DNA from: Desmodesmus armatus
Taxonomy: Eukaryota; Chlorophyta; Chlorophyceae; Sphaeropleales; Scenedesmaceae
Direction of reading: 5' to 3'
Assembly (NCBI GenBank): GCA_007449985.2
Contig: VIIQ02000134.1
Location: forward strand, 1 to 64,000
Length of the DNA stretch: 64,000 bases
Made by a program: the position numbers and the translations under genes. The notes under the pieces are model-generated. The model was given only the letters and a program-made list of their open reading frames with translations, did not search any database and was not told where the DNA came from. This document shows, one piece after another, positions 2,742 through 50,600 of this stretch. The stretch's first letter is position 1, and every line of letters begins with the position of its first letter.

Positions 2742-4965
2742 TTAGCGGTCGCCTGCATTCGGCCAGTCGCCGTTGCTGCCATGGTGCTGCTTGCCATCTG
2801 GATCTGTGAACCACTCATCCTCTCCGGATGCGATAATCCTCAACACAGTGGGCAGCTTGCGCATGTTGCGCTCCACCCCCCGGTGGTACAGCTCCCCCTT
2901 CTCAAACCTCTTAAACACACCCTTGAAGATGCGCCGCAGGGACTCACCCGAGAACACAACCCCATGGCAGCATTCATCAAACACCTTGTCTGTTGCTGCT
3001 CCCTTGACTGCACCAATGGAGTGCTCCACCAGCTGATCAATGTCTGAGCTGTGGGGGGGAAGCGAAGGCGGCAGCCTTCAGGCAGGGTGATGGTGCCGTA
3101 GCGGGACTCGATGATCTTATCCGGGATGTTGGCCTGTATGCGGACGTTGTCCATCATGATGATGGGGTCCTCACCAGTCACATTCCTAAACTTCTCCACC
3201 ATCTTGTACAGGTTGTCAGCTACCTCATCAGTAACAGTGCTTGCTGCGTCTGCTCCATCCTTCCTCTGCAGGTCACGGCATGGCGGAGCAACAGCACGGC
3301 AACAGCAAAGGGAGGGAGGCATTGATGAGGAAGGCCTTGGCAGCACATCAACTGGGGGGGATCAGGGTGAAGAAGCCACACAACAGAGCAGTGACGTGGG
3401 TGGACCGTGCTGGCAATGAGTATAAGTTGCTCAAGTCAGAGAAGAAGCAGCAGTTCATGTGGTGCACTACGGAGTGTCGGGACAAGGTGCAACACTTCAA
3501 GTTGTGCACCCCTGACGCTGTGCGCAAGCCTGTCGCACTCATGTGCTGCTTCTGCACTTATGAAAGTGGGGCATGGGAGGCTGCTGGCCGTCCTGTTATC
3601 CCCCCTGCAGAGTGGAAGTTCATGCAGCTAGTTGCGCAGCAGCAGCAGTCACAGGAGTGGTGTTGGCAGGTGCACTTGACCGATTGCCATGGTCGCATTG
3701 ATTTCTACAACTGGAAGCGCGACGTGTATCTACAAGTTGACGATTCTTATCACTTCAGGGATGGTTGCAAGAATAAGGCATTTGAGCGTGATTTCAAGTG
3801 CAACAAGGTATGCTGCGAGCGCCGCCTGGCGCTCGTACGCGCGCATCATGCAGACCTCGCGGCACCAGATATTGTTATGGCAGCTGTTGAATATGCATCG
3901 CAGCATAAGGGTGTTGTTTTTACTGCCAGCTACGAGCTTTCTGGCAAGCCTCACATTGAGAAGCTGTGTGCTGGGGTGGGAGCAGCAGCAGCAACTGCTG
4001 CTGATGCCTTTGGAAACCAGCTGGTCAATTTGTAACTGTGCTCACCTGGTAGACAAAGGGCTCTTTGCCTTCTTGCCCAAGCTTGTTGAACCAGCGGAGG
4101 ATGTGGGTGGTGCCTGTGGTGAGTTCATAGTACACCAAGCCGTTCTTGTCGCTGAAGCTGGGGTGTGCTGACACGCATATGAAGAAGTGAACTGTCTGCT
4201 GCTTGTCCCCTTGATCGTTGGCAGCGACACGTAGTCGTGCAGGGGGAGGTGCTGCAGGTCCACATATGCCCTGACATGCGCATGGGTGTAGGTGTTGTAT
4301 GTCCAGCGGCCCTCGTCGCACTGCACAATCCTAGCTAGGATTGCATTCAGCAACGCCTGTGCGACGTTCCACTCTGCCAGCAGCTGCTTGCAGAAGCTTT
4401 TCCGGGCAGCTTTCTCCTTTTCTGTCAGCCGGTACTTCAACGCAAAACTGCGCCGCCCGAGGTTGGGATCCTCCCTCATCATGGCGTTGTACAGCTGGTG
4501 GGGGGTGCAGTTGTATTTCTGCATGACACCCTTGACAGCATCAGACTCCACCGTCGCCTGCCGCACTGTGGTGAAGTAGGATATCAGGGTGATGGTGTGT
4601 CCTTTTCGGGTCTTTGTGTGCAGCCTTCCTGCCTTGATGGCTGTACTAGCTGTTAGGGCATCTTCTCTGCTGATAAGGACAGGGCGGCCTGTGCGGAGGT
4701 TGTCCTCGACGTCACCGTACTCCACAAAGTGGTCCCATCTGCCCTTCAATACAGGCTTGGGATCCTCTGCCAGCTTGTCACCACCAAGCTGCTTGCGCAC
4801 CTTCTTATATAGTCTGCCGGCAAGGCCATAATCGACCTTGCCGTCGACGAGAGCCTGGGCGCAAGCCACGACGCATGACTTCCTGGTGGCCGGGGTGTGG
4901 CGGTTGTGACCGCTGTGCACAGGCTCCTCCTTAGCTGGTGCCCTGCGCGTGGTTGAAAACAGCAA
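2742..4965 (-). CDS. Tc1/mariner-like DDE transposase, copy B (two exons, two frameshifts)
   Basis: Exon 1 is 4046-4965 and exon 2 is 2742-3265. The donor is CAG|GTGAGC, the acceptor CTGCAG|AGGAAGG, and both are phase 0. Exon 1 has a helix-turn-helix-like region (RWDHFVEYGDVEDNLRTGRP) and the first acidic motif (RAYVDLQHL). Exon 2 has the second (IIMMDNVRIQANI) and the third (FPP.SSDIDQLVEHSIGAVKG), matching the DDE pattern of Tc1/mariner/IS630 enzymes, which cut and join transposon ends. Exon 1 is one C short at 4207-4210 and exon 2 one base short in the G-run 3053-3059 (7 where 8 keeps the frame). Restored lengths, 921 and 525 nt, would give about 481 residues. The intron 3266-4045 contains the opposite-strand nuclease gene. 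Confidence 0.75.
3280..4035 (+). CDS. Zinc-binding, Vsr/restriction-fold-like nuclease nested in the transposase intron, copy B
   Basis: An open frame of 251 codons starts at ATG 3280 and ends at 4035. Order of features: a basic N-terminus; a Cys-rich part (WCTTECRD near residue 60, CCFCTY near 90) that looks like a zinc finger; then GRIDFYNWKRDVYLQVDDSYHF and ERDFK followed by RLALVR. The DFY...(E/Q)xD...H...RD spacing resembles the PD-(D/E)xK fold of Vsr and DUF559 nucleases, although the usual Glu appears as Gln. The C-terminus is Ala-rich. The gene lies wholly inside the 780 bp minus-strand transposase intron (3266-4045), leaving 14 and 10 bases at its ends. A pyrimidine-rich CTGCAG just before the ATG could be a plus-strand acceptor, so an upstream exon is possible. 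Function is inferred. Confidence 0.6.
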   Translation: MAEQQHGNSKGREALMRKALAAHQLGGIRVKKPHNRAVTWVDRAGNEYKLLKSEKKQQFMWCTTECRDKVQHFKLCTPDAVRKPVALMCCFCTYESGAWEAAGRPVIPPAEWKFMQLVAQQQQSQEWCWQVHLTDCHGRIDFYNWKRDVYLQVDDSYHFRDGCKNKAFERDFKCNKVCCERRLALVRAHHADLAAPDIVMAAVEYASQHKGVVFTASYELSGKPHIEKLCAGVGAAAATAADAFGNQLVNL

Positions 4966-43100: not shown

Positions 43101-45268
43101 CCCCTACTCTATACCCATAGGTGCTGTGGCAGAGGCAGGCAATGCTTGTTCAGTGATGACTTGAGAATGGGTTACTACGAGAGCATTGCTGGTGGTGCTG
43201 CATGTGTTAGCCACCATCGTGTAGCACCACCACCCCCCGACTGGATCCAAACCAGTGACCTTCTGACTCCCTTATTGCATCAATCGTTTTAGGAAGAGAT
43301 GCAGACACAGCGCACGGGTCTCACACCCACCTACATGACACCCAAACTGGTGTCAAGTACAGTCCAAGAGGTGCCGCAGCAAGCCTTGGCTAGTCGGTGA
43401 GGAAAAAAATGGTGATAAGAAGTGAAAGTCTCCTTTGTCAGCTGGTTATAAATGCTGCGGTAGCAAACGCCAACATTGCACCAGCTGCTGGCGGCAGGGA
43501 TGGAAATAGGCCAATTGTCACGATGCACGTGTGTATTTGTCGTTTCCTGCTTGGGCACGTCTGTTGACGTCTGGTTGAAAAACATCAAATCATATACATG
43601 GACGATCTCCTTGCACGTGCCATAATGCACTGGACGGCTGCACAAGTGTGCTTGAACGATAACAATGAAAGTGCGTTTCATGTGGTCCTGGGTACATGCA
43701 GGGGTAGTAAGGGCCCTTACTACCCCTGGGTACATGTTGCGAGACAAATGCAGGGTTGAGTAATGGGTCACGAACATATAACATAGAGCAATGGGTGACT
43801 AGCGTACCGTCAGCTGTGGATGAGCGTGCCGAAGATATAGGGACATCAGCCTGTTGTCTGCCCATCAGCAACGCTTGCGTGGATCAGGCACACGACAGGG
43901 GCGCAAGGGTGCAGCAGATATGTTCACTTGCTGCTGCTGCTGCTGCTGCTGTAAGCTTGTAGTTGAGCAACGAGTGCGGTGCCATAATGGTCCCCGATCA
44001 TGTCACATGTAGTTGTAAACTCGAAAAGGGTCTGTTGACTCCCCTAACTCCCTGTCCCAACCCTTGGGGCAGAGGGGTAAATGGTGGGAGTTAGTGAATA
44101 CAAAATGACAGATAAGGTGTAATCAGTCTCGCAGGGCTATGGGTATACTAACTCCCACTAACTTCCAAATATTTAAAAAATGGGCGAATTTTGATGGGAG
44201 TTGGGAGTTAAATTTCAAGGGAAACCCGCCTAAACCAGGGAAGTTGGGAGTTAGTGGCAGTTAGGGAAAGTGTGCGGACCACTGGCGGACCTAAGCGGAC
44301 CCTCAGGCAATGACCGGTGCGGACCTGTGCGGACTCCCTGCCCCCACCATGACTGGCTCATGCCTTAGCACCCCCTCCTCAATGCCCTCACCCCCCCCCA
44401 GTGCTGGACTGCATTTGGCCGCTCACAGCAGACAGTCACCCAGTAAACCTGACGTGGCACCAAAGCACAAGCAATGATATATGCAGCGCGTTCGATCATT
44501 AATTTACAACAGAAACAATACTGCAACTGGTAAGGGGCTATGCGGACGCATAACATCAACGACTGAAGGATCGATCAAACTCGGTGATCACAACAACAAC
44601 TTCAAGATCAGCCAACGACCAACTTGCACCACAACCTGGCATCTTGCGCCCCCAAAACAATTATTAACAACGTGTTGCCGGCCCACAACCCCTGCTCCTT
44701 TGGTTGGCCCTGCCAGCCCTGCTGCCAGCCCTGGCCCTCGCCCGCGGCGGCTGCTGCTCCTGTGCCTCCCCTGCTGCCCCCTCCTCCCCCTCCCCCTGCA
44801 CCTGCTGCCGGCGCCGCTTGGGCCTGCCGGGCCGTGCAGCACCAGCAGCTGCAGCTGCCTGGCCAGCAGCTGCCAGGCCGCTGCTGCTGTCACTCTCTGC
44901 TGCCACCTTGGTGCCCTTCTTCTTGAGGTACTTGGTGAAGTAAGCCGAGGGCTTCATCTTGTACTCCAAGTCCAGCGCTGCTGCTGCATCTGCGTAGCTG
45001 GCGATGTCATCGGCACTGTGTGCTGCTGTCAGCTGCTTGGCCCTGCCCTTCACAACTCCCCAGAGCATCCTGTGGTCGCTCCAGCGGCGCTTGTCACACC
45101 CCTTGCGCCAGCTGGAGCCTACCTTCTCAAGCTCTATCCGTGTCTGGCTGTAGCCGGGGGCCTGCTCATCAGTGTACCAGCTGGTGTACTGCCGGAAGGT
45201 GGAGAAGGCGCTCATTGCAGGCACAGGGCCAGGCTCAGCCACGCTGCTCTCGCCCCCAGCTGCGTCCC

Positions 45269-45309
<41 letters not shown>

Positions 45310-46765
45310 CCTGCAGCAGGAGGTATCTGCTGCATGCCTGCCCCAGGTGGCGCTGGCCCCAACATGCCTCCCAAACCCTGACCTCCCTGCTGCTCTGAGA
45401 GCTTTCCTACGATGTAATCCCCCAATGCCACCATGACCTGCGCTGAGCGTCCCATGTCTGACCTGTAGCCAAGCGCTGCTGCTGTCGCAGGCAACCTGCT
45501 GATGGTGGGCTCCAGGAACCCAAAGGGGTTGCCACTCAGCTGCAGGGCGGGCTGCTGAAGAGCAGCAGCAGCTTGCAAGACAGACTGCTGCTGCTGCTGC
45601 TCCTGCTGCAAACCAGCCCGTGCATTGCTGGCCACCTGCTGCTCAAGGCTATTCAGCAGTGCGAGCCCTTCTGGGCCAACATGCGACCGCAGCTGCTGCA
45701 GCAAAGCAGCAGTCGCCTGCTGCTGCTGTCCCTGCTGTTCCTGCTGCGGCAGCTGCTGTGGCGGCTGCTGGAAGACGTGCTGCTGCTGCTGCTGCTGCGG
45801 CAGCTGCTGAAAGAGCTGCTGCTGTGCATGGAGTGGCCAGCCTGCAGCCGCTGCTGCTGCTGTAGCTGCTGTGGGACCAGGCTGCTGCCAGAGCTGCTGG
45901 TTGCCCATGGAATGGCCAGGCTGCAGCCGCGGCTGCTGCTGCTTCAGCTGCTGTGGGACCAGACCTGCACGCCAAGGCTGTGCGGCACACATGCCAGCAA
46001 TGTGCTGCTGCTGTTGCTGCTCCTCCTCCTCACCCAGCCACCAGCTGTGGGTGTGATCACCAGGGGAGACGGCTGCGCGAGCAGCAAACTGTGAGCGAGG
46101 CCTCATCCCCCCTGCCGGTGAGTAAAACATGGGGCTGCTGACCATCTGCTGCTGGTGGCCTGGCTCTTCAACCTCATACATCTGCATGATGTCAGCTGCC
46201 TCCTGCCTGCTGTGCTGTGCTGGACCCTGCTGCTGCTGTTGGCGTGGGCGGCGCTGCTGCTGCTGCTGCTGCTGCCGCGGTGGCTGCCGCTGCCGCAACA
46301 CACGGGCTTGCCCCTCGGGCATGTCTTCTGGCTCCTGCACATGCACAAATGGCATACATGCAGAGGTGATGAGCATTGTCAGCACTTTGCCGGCCCAGGT
46401 GTGATTGAAAAGCGGTGATCTTCTCAGGCAGCACAACTGAGTTTGAATAGCTGGTAGGCACGCGCCTGCTGTCTCTGCAGAAGAAACCCGTGTGAAGTGC
46501 ACTCCCGCTCACCTCGCTTTCTGCTGCCGGCGCCTCCTCACTTGCCCCATCTGCCTCTGCTGCTGCCTCTTCCTCAGCAGCAACAAGCTCCTCCCGCTGC
46601 TGCTGCAGTTCTGCCAACTGTGCAGCACTGAGGCCATCTGGGCCACACTTCAGCTGCTGCAGGATAGCAGCCAGTTCCTCTTCTTCAGAGACTGGCTGCT
46701 GCTGCCTCTGCTGCTGCAATCCGACCTGGCCATGGCTGCTGCCTGCAGCTGCTGGTGGCGGCTCG

Positions 46766-46799
<34 letters not shown>

Positions 46800-47614
46800 G
46801 TGGTGACGACTCGGCGGCTGCAGCCGCAGTCGCCGTAGTGCTGCTGGCCTGCAGCTGCTTCTGTGCCTCTTGACGCAGCTCCAGCAGGCCCTGCTGCAAC
46901 TGCTGCTGCATGTCTGTGACACCCTGAAGGGCCATGCCCAGCATCTCCTTCTCAGTCACAGGCTTGTCCACCCAAATGGCACCACTGTCCTTGGCCAGCT
47001 TGAAGCGCCGCATCTGGTCCCTGGATAATTCACAACACAACAGCAGTGGCAGGAACAGTGGCAAAGCAGCGCACTCCAAAAATTGCAAGCACAGCATGTG
47101 TAAACACCATGGGTTGCACGTAGGGGCATGTACAAAGCCTATGGCCCTTACCCCCCCCCCTCCTGCATCTGCTTGTGTGCTGTCAATCTTACCTGACTAG
47201 TGCTGCCTGTGGTCCCTTCAGCAGCAGGTTGTAGACAGGGTTGTTGGTGTACTTGGTGGGCCTGTCAGGGTCTGTCACCACCTCCAGGAAGTCCTGCCAC
47301 ACCACGCCTGCCAGGTATGGCAACAGGTCTGCCATGCCCCTTGCTGACACCGGCACTGGCCGCCCAGCGGCATCTGCAGCTGCAATGCTGGCCCTGAAGG
47401 CAGCTGCACAGGGCAGCAGCAGGTCGATGATGGGCTGTGGTGTCAGGACCATGAGCGCAGGCCTCCAGTACTGGTCGTAGGGGTGGGCGTGCGGCCAGTT
47501 GCCCATGACCAGCAGGGTCGAAGGCTTGAGGGCTGTCAGGAGGTACACCCTTGTCAACGAGTGCAAGCGCCAACCGCCAAAGCGGCAGGTGTCCTAGACA
47601 CACATACACACGCA

Positions 47615-47645
<31 letters not shown>

Positions 47646-50600
47646 ATAGCAGCAGCAGAGTGGCACTTTTGTGTGTGCAGCTGCATCACCAGGGCGTACA
47701 ACATTATCCTAGCTGAACGAGCATGCAGTATGCATCATAGCTACATGTGTAACAAGAATGCATGTCATGCCCATGTCTTGCCCCTCGCCCACTTGATCCC
47801 TCCAGTACCCACCTCCTCAGGCACGCCTGCCTCGTCTGCTTTACGCACAGTGTGGTACCGGGGGGCATGTGTCACCTTCTTGATGCGTATGTCCAGGGCC
47901 ATGTAGATCTTTGCGAACCGTGCCCTGTGCCCGCCGTACGACAGGCTGCTGCTGAAATCCTTCCTGCCGGGCCAGATCTTCACAGTCAGGAAATCCCGGC
48001 TGCAGGGGTCAGGGAACACCTCACCACCCAGTGTGAAGCGGGTCACAAAGTAGCGGCCGAGGGCAGACTGCACATCTAGCAGCGGCTCCTTGTGCCTCAG
48101 GCAGCCCTTGGTGGCCAGCTTGCCACCTTGGTTCTTGCCAAAGGTCTGCAGGATGCCGATCACCCAGCAGTGTGCAGGCCCTGAAGACATGCAAGCAATA
48201 ACAGCAGCAACATGTGTCAGAACCTGTGCCACAGGCTTGCAATCAACAGCGTGGCTGCAGCTAAGCAAAGCAAATCCCTTCTGATGAAAATACGTAATGA
48301 AGTTGGCATGCAGTATCTCACCTATGCAGGTGCGCAGCAAGGGTGGTGTGAGCTCACACAGCCGCCGCTCTCGCACGTCATCTCCCCTGCCTGCTGTGAA
48401 AGACATGGCTAGCAGCATGCTCAGGTCCCTGGCGTCTATGGCCTTGGGAGAGGCCAGCGAGTGGTCAGCAATCTTCACAAGGTCGTCCCTGCGAATCACA
48501 GCACGACAACAAGGGCGTGCACAGGGAAACAGCATAGGTCAGTGGGAGGCATGGGTAGATCTGCCACAGCATCTGCACAGCTGCTTTGGTGCATGCTTTG
48601 CGGTGACAACACCACATTGCTGTTGACTGCACAGCTCCAGCATGCACCTCTCCTGCCCTTGAGCACATCTTAATTGGGATGTGGGAAGTGGCTGGCATGA
48701 GCGCTTGGAGCTTCATAGCTACAGGTTTGTATGTATGCATGCATGTAGGCATGTATGCAGGTGATGTAACCGTAAGCGCATCACTCACGTGCTGAAGGTG
48801 GATGCCAGGGTATTGTCCTGCGGGTCGAGGTGTTGCGGATCAATCTGCCCTGCCTGAAGCTTGCTGCGCGCCTGGCACTGCTTGTACACCTCAGCATACA
48901 CTTCATATGCCAGCAGGCCGCGCTTGGGCATGATGCTGCCACTGCTGCCGCCCTTTGCACGCAGTTGCAGGCCACGGCCCCTGAACACCGCCTGCAGCAT
49001 GCTGTGGACCCTCTTGAACATGGCAGTACCTTTGAAGTCTGCTGCCTCCTTGCCCTGCCACATCACAACACAACAACAAACATAAGTGTGTCAGTTGCAG
49101 CTGACAAGTGTCCAGGCGCTGCCTTGGCCTGTTGAGTGTACCCCATGCCGCTGTCACACCGGCAGTGCAGGTAAAGAGTTTAAGCCCAACACACACCACT
49201 TGACTTCCTCACCTTCAGGCCTGGGTGCCCCTCCAGTATGTACCAGGTCAGGAACCTGGCGGCCAGGTCAGGCCCATCTGAGCCGGACAGGGTTTCGTCA
49301 AAGGGGTTCTTGCGTCGCACGGGGGGCTGTCCAGCAGTCATCTGGAACTCGCAGAACGCCTGGAACACATACAGAGGCACCAAGCGCAAAGTCACTAAGG
49401 CGTGCAGCTAATGGCAAGATACATTGATGCAAGACATGCACATGCTTGTGACATGCACTATAGCCAACGGTCGCAAGTGTGGGGAGTGGGTGTGCTGTTC
49501 TACTCAGCCGCTGCCATTCTACTCAGCCGCTGCCATGCTGTGGGTGCCTGAGTTTGCGTGCACTCACCACAAGGTGCACGCGGAGGCCCTCATACTGGCC
49601 TGCAGTGTTGTTGTTCCCGGCCAGCCGTCGCTTCTCCACCAGCTGCTTCACCTCTGCTGGTGTGTATCTGCAGCAGTGCCAAGCATCAGGTGTGTTTTGG
49701 GTGTGCGTGCTGGCTGGAGGAACAAACACAAACGGAAGTTGTGAAATAGAATCAGCAACACTGCCTCAACACTTGTAAAGCAGCAACACCATCACTGCCT
49801 GTCCCACTTTGCCAACACCACTAACAGACATGGAACCAACAGACATGGCACAGGCTGGCTGTCTGGCTGGCTCATTACCTTGCTGAGGCTTTTGGCTCCC
49901 TGCGTTGCTGGTGTGCATCTGCCTCCTGGTCTGACTCCTCCTGGCTGTCCTCCGACTCGTCGTAAAGGCCACCCAGGATGTCGTCAGCAAGCTCACTGTC
50001 TGCTGCTGTTGGGTCCCACTCGCCGTCCTCCAGGTCTTCCAGCAGCTCTGGGTCGCTGTCATCATCAAACTGCTGTGCTGCAGCTGCTTTTGGGGCCCTC
50101 TTGCGCTTTTGAGGAACGTGTGCATCGTGCTTGGCATCCTGCTCCTGCACCTGTGCTGCTGATGGCTTTGCAGTGCCTGCTTTGCTTGCAGGAGCTTGTT
50201 TGCCTTTGCTGCCCCGACCCATGACAATCTTAAGGGTCTACATTAGCACGTAGAAGCGGGTAACCGAGCTGATATCGTCTCCACAGATTGAACGTGCTGT
50301 TGTGATGGAGGTTATGATGGGACTCTAGGTGCCAGTTCACAACGATACGCGACGATACAGTGCACAAAGGAAAGCCTCAACATAGAAGGATAACATACGC
50401 AGCGCTGCAGCGTTCTCGTTACCCTCACAGGCATGTAACCTGCAAGTAACCGTTTTTGAAACTGTGCGGACTTTGACTAGGTCCGCATGGGTCCGCCAGC
50501 CCATTGACCAAGGTCCGCACTTCGCACTATAAGTACTAGTTAGGGGAGTCAACAGACCCTTAACTCGAAAGAGCTACTTTCCAGGACCTTGGAAGGCCGG

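Follow-up and report, generated by a model that had tools for sequence, protein, structure and literature searches.

In a stretch of 64,000 nucleotides from the green alga Desmodesmus armatus (contig VIIQ02000134.1, positions 1 to 64,000; hereafter the window), a gene with the motifs of a tyrosine recombinase (YR) lies between terminal inverted repeats (TIRs) and an 8-bp target site duplication (TSD). We interpret this structure, with a probability of about 93%, as a nested insertion in which a Crypton-like YR element sits inside the remains of an unrelated TIR element, and it is to this outer element, not to the recombinase, that the TIRs and the 8-bp duplication belong. The nesting is supported because the TIR occurs without the YR element (15 of 16 TIR pairs) and the YR element occurs without the TIR. 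A spurious candidate for a tyrosine recombinase transposon that makes TIRs and TSDs is hereby removed and, as a by-product, a green alga is found to hold a Crypton-like family, present at 31 loci and, to judge from its copies, recently amplified, for which precise ends, a target core and empty-site counterparts were obtained.

Independent occurrence of the inverted repeats and the recombinase gene

Within the window, a perfect 24-bp inverted repeat (AAGGGTCTGTTGACTCCCCTAACT at 44026-44049, with its reverse complement at 50538-50561) is directly flanked on both sides by the 8-bp duplication AACTCGAA (44018-44025 and 50562-50569), and a single, apparently intact recombinase gene lies in between, all of which agrees with the first-pass annotation of this locus. 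The repeat is far above chance, since the 24-mer has 41 matches with at most 3 mismatches in the 115.8-Mb genome versus none for a reversed control. When pairs are assigned by hand from the match coordinates, 32 of the 41 matches make 16 pairs (the other 9 are unpaired at this threshold). In fifteen pairs the spacing is 555 to 1458 bp, which leaves no room for the YR element; the window pair alone spans 6536 bp. Seven of the shorter copies were read in sequence (L002 to L007 and L047), the remaining eight pairs being judged on length only. All seven are YR-free, measure 945 to 1458 bp and show the same layout as the window, with TIRs and perfect 8-bp TSDs, every one of them distinct (CTGTGACA, ATCAGCGC, CTGCAACT, CAACATGC, CATCTTTT, CAATCAGT and GGTGCTGG).

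The YR element was located across the genome through the recurrence of its protein, its left interior and its right interior, and is found at 31 loci with at least one end, giving 29 left and 29 right ends (the window copy counted) and both ends at 27 loci. Apart from the window copy, the 60 bp shown for each of 28 left and 28 right ends contain no TIR, and outer-element sequence lies within 700 bp of only one other YR copy (L025), on one side, with the TIR end about 245 bp off. The first-pass annotation had asked for confirmation that the TIR, the subterminal repeats and the YR gene always travel together, and they do not: other TIR pairs bound different DNA, the subterminal GCGGAC repeats are part of the YR element, and this element has termini of its own, at 44261 and 50540, inside 44026-50561.

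A new transposon class, in which the tyrosine recombinase itself would move a TIR-ended element and make the 8-bp duplication, had also been put forward. It draws on a coincidence of TIRs, TSD and intact YR gene that is seen in the window alone, and against it stand the 15 pairs too short for the YR element (7 of them read without it), the TIR-free YR ends, the one-sided neighborhood of L025 and an empty site of an insertion on C42 that lacks the 8-bp duplication (see below), so that we give it practically no credence. The other reading offered, a YR gene inside a DDE-type element, stands as a nested insertion; that a DDE transposase mobilized the outer element is suggested by the TIR and the 8-bp TSD, and the transposase was not found.

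Ends, target core, and empty sites of the YR element

Alignment of the 29 left and 29 right ends places the Crypton-like element of the window at 44261-50540 (6280 bp, gene on the minus strand) and reveals no terminal inverted repeats. All 29 left ends open with TTAGGGAAAGTGTG, and 26 of the 29 right ends close with ACTAGT (L022, L033 and L036 deviate). Outside the element, position −1 on the left is G in 29/29 copies and position −2 is A in 27/29; on the right, position +1 is T in 25/25 and position +2 is A in 23/25 (L022, L024, L033 and L036, which have altered ends, are excluded). Since the flank consensus is AG on the left and TA on the right, the target core is (A)GTTA, and the same direct repeat bounds the element. 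In the window, this terminal direct repeat and putative crossover core reads AGTTA on the plus strand at 44259-44263 and again at 50538-50542, where it takes in the TIR's innermost 5 bp.

The flanks of the YR copies are mutually unrelated, save for L025 and the window copy, each with outer-element sequence to its left, and for the neighbors L025 and L026, which have their intervening DNA in common. Over the aligned stretches, 21 of the 26 other two-ended copies are at least 99.2% identical to the window copy and 5 are 95.4 to 98.5% identical; by these sequences, the family has amplified recently. We also observe that L025 (C13:686900-694600) has about 245 bp of the outer TIR element at its left side, that L025 and L026 are inverted relative to each other, their right ends separated by about 780 bp (C13:687567-701236), and that L025, L026 and L023 carry an additional 135 to 180 bp or so near position 3770 of the YR element.

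Both ends of the window copy carry subterminal repeats, with five GCGGAC units on the plus strand at 44274-44334 and one forward and three reverse units (GCGGAC/GTCCGC) at 50466-50518. Of the 10 such hexamers in the YR element, nine are no more than 75 bp from an end, compared with 19 in 57.5 kb of surrounding window sequence; they are plausible candidates for recombinase binding sites. A palindromic core across the predicted circle junction, where a weak subterminal inverted repeat of the GGTCCGCAC type is visible, is not claimed here, as 18 of 500 shuffled sequences scored at least as well in the alignment.

For the empty-site search, 25 flank pairs were joined and 20 of these searched in the genome, and counterparts running across the join were recovered for two of the 20 insertions, those on C42 and C9. 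The C42 insertion has counterparts at C530 (matching at 81 of 81 bases, with 20 bases on the left side of the join) and at C165 (96%), both with the core GGTTA, and the C9 insertion sits in a satellite, other units of which (on C213, C21, C710 and C9) are continuous over the site at 88 to 92% identity. The 8-bp duplication is absent from both comparisons. The other 18 joined flanks gave no match across the join among the 40 candidates scored out of 267. With no TIR, no TSD, a direct repeat of 4 to 5 bp and empty-site counterparts, the anatomy of the inner element is of the Crypton type.

The satellite itself is tandemly repeated, with units of about 270 bp, at C213:144339-149843, C21:236142-239493, C710:73769-76043 and C9:521587-522219, and the YR insertion interrupts the array on C9.

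The recombinase gene and a second YR family

The YR gene, predicted by eye, spans 50222 to 44664 on the minus strand, has nine exons with GT-AG introns and encodes 1323 amino acids without an internal stop. Exons 1 (49879-50222, with the ATG at 50222), 2 (49568-49667), 3 (49213-49359) and 4 (48789-49054) are followed by exon 5 (48322-48488) with the catalytic Arg I (R320, in TAGRGDD), exon 6 (47813-48180) with His II and Arg II (H446 and R449, in HAPR) and exon 7 (47193-47593) with W472 and Y481 (FGGWRLHSLTRVYL). The last two exons, 8 (46513-47020) and 9 (44664-46334), are Q/A-rich, and the latter includes a C-terminal block that looks GCR1_C-like by eye. As assigned by eye, R320, H446-x-x-R449, W472 and Y481 follow each other in order, at a spacing that we take to be that of a tyrosine recombinase. 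By motif, we regard the protein as a putative tyrosine recombinase with an R-H-R-Y tetrad.

The genome also contains a second Crypton-like YR family, with 33% identity across the aligned domain, which keeps all of R, H-x-x-R, W and Y and has the intron between exons 5 and 6 at an equal position. It comprises three copies (L040, L041 and L042 on C26, C202 and C282; with L048 to L050) with 98 to 99.7% mutual identity, and the element is about 7.6 kb long in two of them, the L042 copy being cut at its 5′ side. No TIR is seen in this second-family element, and the two of three copies that have both ends show TGTAAC direct repeats at both, which corresponds to a GTTAC core on the other strand. The Pfam profile GCR1_C reaches an E value of 0.022 in the second family, which is below the cut-off, and has no match for the window element, the two C-terminal blocks being 24% identical.

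Across the nine predicted exons (introns, untranslated regions and the plus strand lay outside the scan), Pfam gave no match to a reverse transcriptase (RT) or a DDE transposase. A protein database search with the YR region returned no match at an E value of ≤0.001 among the best 7992 candidates by shared words that were scored, and among viral contigs 28 pattern matches yielded no relatives. A Pfam match of exon 1 to the Mak16 C-terminus (E = 6e-4, below its cut-off) was taken as acidic low-complexity similarity.

Junctions of the nested insertion and loss of outer-element DNA

The outer element is represented in the window by its left 235 bp (44026-44260, plus strand), which begin with the TIR at 44026-44049 and are 93 to 97% identical to one end of the seven YR-free copies, and by its last 21 bp (50541-50561, plus strand), a remnant of the right TIR. 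Inverted matches of about 71 bp at 96 to 99% identity indicate that the TIR of intact outer copies, which starts with AAGGGTCTGTTGACTCCCC, is longer than 24 bp. On its left, the YR element joins the outer element after position 235, at CAG^TTAG; on its right comes TTAGGGGAGTCAACAGACCCTT, with which the outer element ends. That end has the sequence AGTTAGGGG, also a target site, in five of the seven copies read, L005 and L007 being the exceptions. The TIR in the window appears to be 24 bp long because the right TIR of about 71 bp breaks off where the YR element is inserted, the innermost bases that remain being shared with the YR core. Relative to L002 to L007, about 680 to 800 bp of the outer element are absent exactly at the YR junctions.

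Several results count against the nested insertion of a Crypton-like YR element as set out here. With respect to the DNA, the outer flanks in the window are not a clean empty site, with about 700 bp gone; the right flank of L025, the sole other YR copy located in an outer element, is likewise not a continuation of the host element; and the satellite counterparts of the C9 insertion read AGTCA or AGTTG in the units read and not AGTTA, meaning either that the target unit was a variant or that the core is not strict. With respect to the protein, no profile identifies it as a tyrosine recombinase above the cut-off, Pfam offering only NDC10_II with E values of 0.02 to 0.07, all below the cut-off. 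NCBIfam gave none, PHROGs gave two families of unknown function at E values of about 0.1, and a sequence search of the PDB gave no match with the single YR sequence and one irrelevant match (E = 0.57) with a two-sequence profile. A single-sequence AlphaFold model of the read-through from exon 5 over the intron into exon 6 was uninformative, with a predicted local distance difference test score of 33. The window and L025 together indicate that insertion may not always be simple.

The loss of outer-element DNA probably came after, or together with, the arrival of the Crypton-like element, either by YR recombination of an element end with a nearby AGTTAG or by homologous recombination of two Crypton copies in one outer element. 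The left breakpoint at CAGTTAG, the AGTTAG at the right in five of the seven outer copies (not L005 and L007) and the likewise noncontinuing right flank of L025 all favor this order of events, but these are two cases only, the C42 and C9 insertions have continuous counterparts, and ordinary repair could give the same outcome. It is possible, and we would hold it somewhat doubtful, that the outer element was instead deleted before the insertion and that a derivative of about 257 bp was the target. The 6 to 11 AGTTA sites on the plus strand of each of the six outer copies L002 to L007 make such a deletion by slippage plausible, but no short predeleted copy of about 257 bp is present among the 16 TIR pairs found at ≤3 mismatches, and both ends of the deletion fall at the insertion point.

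As a nested insertion, the locus very probably arose in two steps. A nonautonomous TIR element of about 0.95 to 1.06 kb, with TIRs of about 71 bp, inserted at AACTCGAA and produced the 8-bp duplication, and the 6.28-kb Crypton-like element later entered one of its many AGTTA sites. Most likely, the recombinase excises the element as a circle via the (A)GTTA repeats at its ends, and the circle would re-enter a target (A)GTTA; because such a circle would reinsert by recombination at (A)GTTA, neither a TIR nor a gap-filled duplication would be expected. The simplest account of the roughly 680 to 800 bp lost between CAGTTAG at position 235 and AGTTAG in the right TIR would be a deletion from one recombinase target site to another, whether it preceded, accompanied or followed the insertion.

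Comparison with known elements

Cryptons, especially CryptonF, are described as lacking TIRs and having terminal direct repeats of 4 to 6 bp and a YR with a GCR1_C tail, and Cbf2/Ndc10 is derived from CryptonF according to Kojima and Jurka (2011; PMC3212892, here and below in its excerpted text). The window element resembles CryptonF in its R-H-R-Y motif, the lack of TIRs, its direct repeats of 4 to 5 bp, the lack of a recognized RT in its predicted exons and the C-terminal block that is GCR1_C-like by eye. It differs in its green algal host, the hosts named in these excerpts being fungi, oomycetes, a diatom and animals, as well as in its nine predicted exons, its long Q/A-rich tracts, its (A)GTTA core and a protein too diverged for recognition above the cut-off by any profile used. 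One match to PF12499, a pherophorin-like family typical of chlorophycean algae, accords with the green algal host. The inner family is probably an undescribed Crypton-like member; the likeness to CryptonF is one of features and does not establish membership. In the literature searched we found no description of a green algal Crypton, though one may have been published; a comparative paper on Chlamydomonas names PAT-like DIRS, Zisupton and Kyakuja elements, and the word Crypton is absent from its main text as excerpted (PMC8226300).

A composite with some likeness to the window is MarCry-1_FO of Fusarium, a Mariner-Crypton element in which a Crypton gene lies between the TIRs and TSDs of a DDE-type element, the DDE part being held responsible for both (PMC3212892). 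MarCry-1_FO is, however, a multicopy fusion that encodes a DDE transposase, whereas the composite in the window is single and the outer copies read have no recognized transposase. The same source leaves open the case of MCi-2A, a fungal element that combines TSDs with part of a Crypton gene. It is very improbable that the 6.5-kb composite moved as a unit, with an outer DDE transposase at work and the Crypton as cargo. The outer TIRs and TSD are intact, and giant DNA transposons of Ectocarpus are reported, in the excerpts of PMC12477816, to carry nested transposable elements along, but there is just one composite among the 16 TIR pairs.

As a speculation that we consider unlikely on balance, the two YR families could represent a green algal lineage of YR DNA transposons outside CryptonF/S/A/I, recently active, whose recombinase deletes the DNA between a resident copy and neighboring (A)GTTA sites. 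If this were true, the recombinase of the lineage would prune the TIR elements in which it lands.

The outer TIR element and its relatives

The outer copies are ordinary nonautonomous TIR elements, and no transposase gene was recognized in those read. TSDs of 8 bp are assigned to the hAT and KDZ superfamilies, and a DDE transposase presumably moved the outer element in trans, as its TIR and 8-bp TSD suggest. With its short length (0.55 to 1.46 kb), TIRs of up to about 71 bp and variable 8-bp TSDs, it resembles hAT- or KDZ-type miniature inverted-repeat transposable elements, from which it differs in that no autonomous partner was found among the KDZ and hAT matches of the genome. Compared by eye, none of the 55 genome matches to KDZ transposase lies on a contig with any of the 41 TIR matches, and the one match to hAT dimerization is on C97, a contig without a TIR match; in both cases, diverged TIRs or an absent autonomous copy could account for this. 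The 55 KDZ matches fall in several groups with nearly equal scores.

The outer element also has a diverged subfamily, about 76 to 81% identical and with the TIR AAGGGGGTGTTGACTCCCC, which occurs on C18, C44, C129, C320, C391, C651 and others, and C651 holds three copies of it about 3.7 kb apart.

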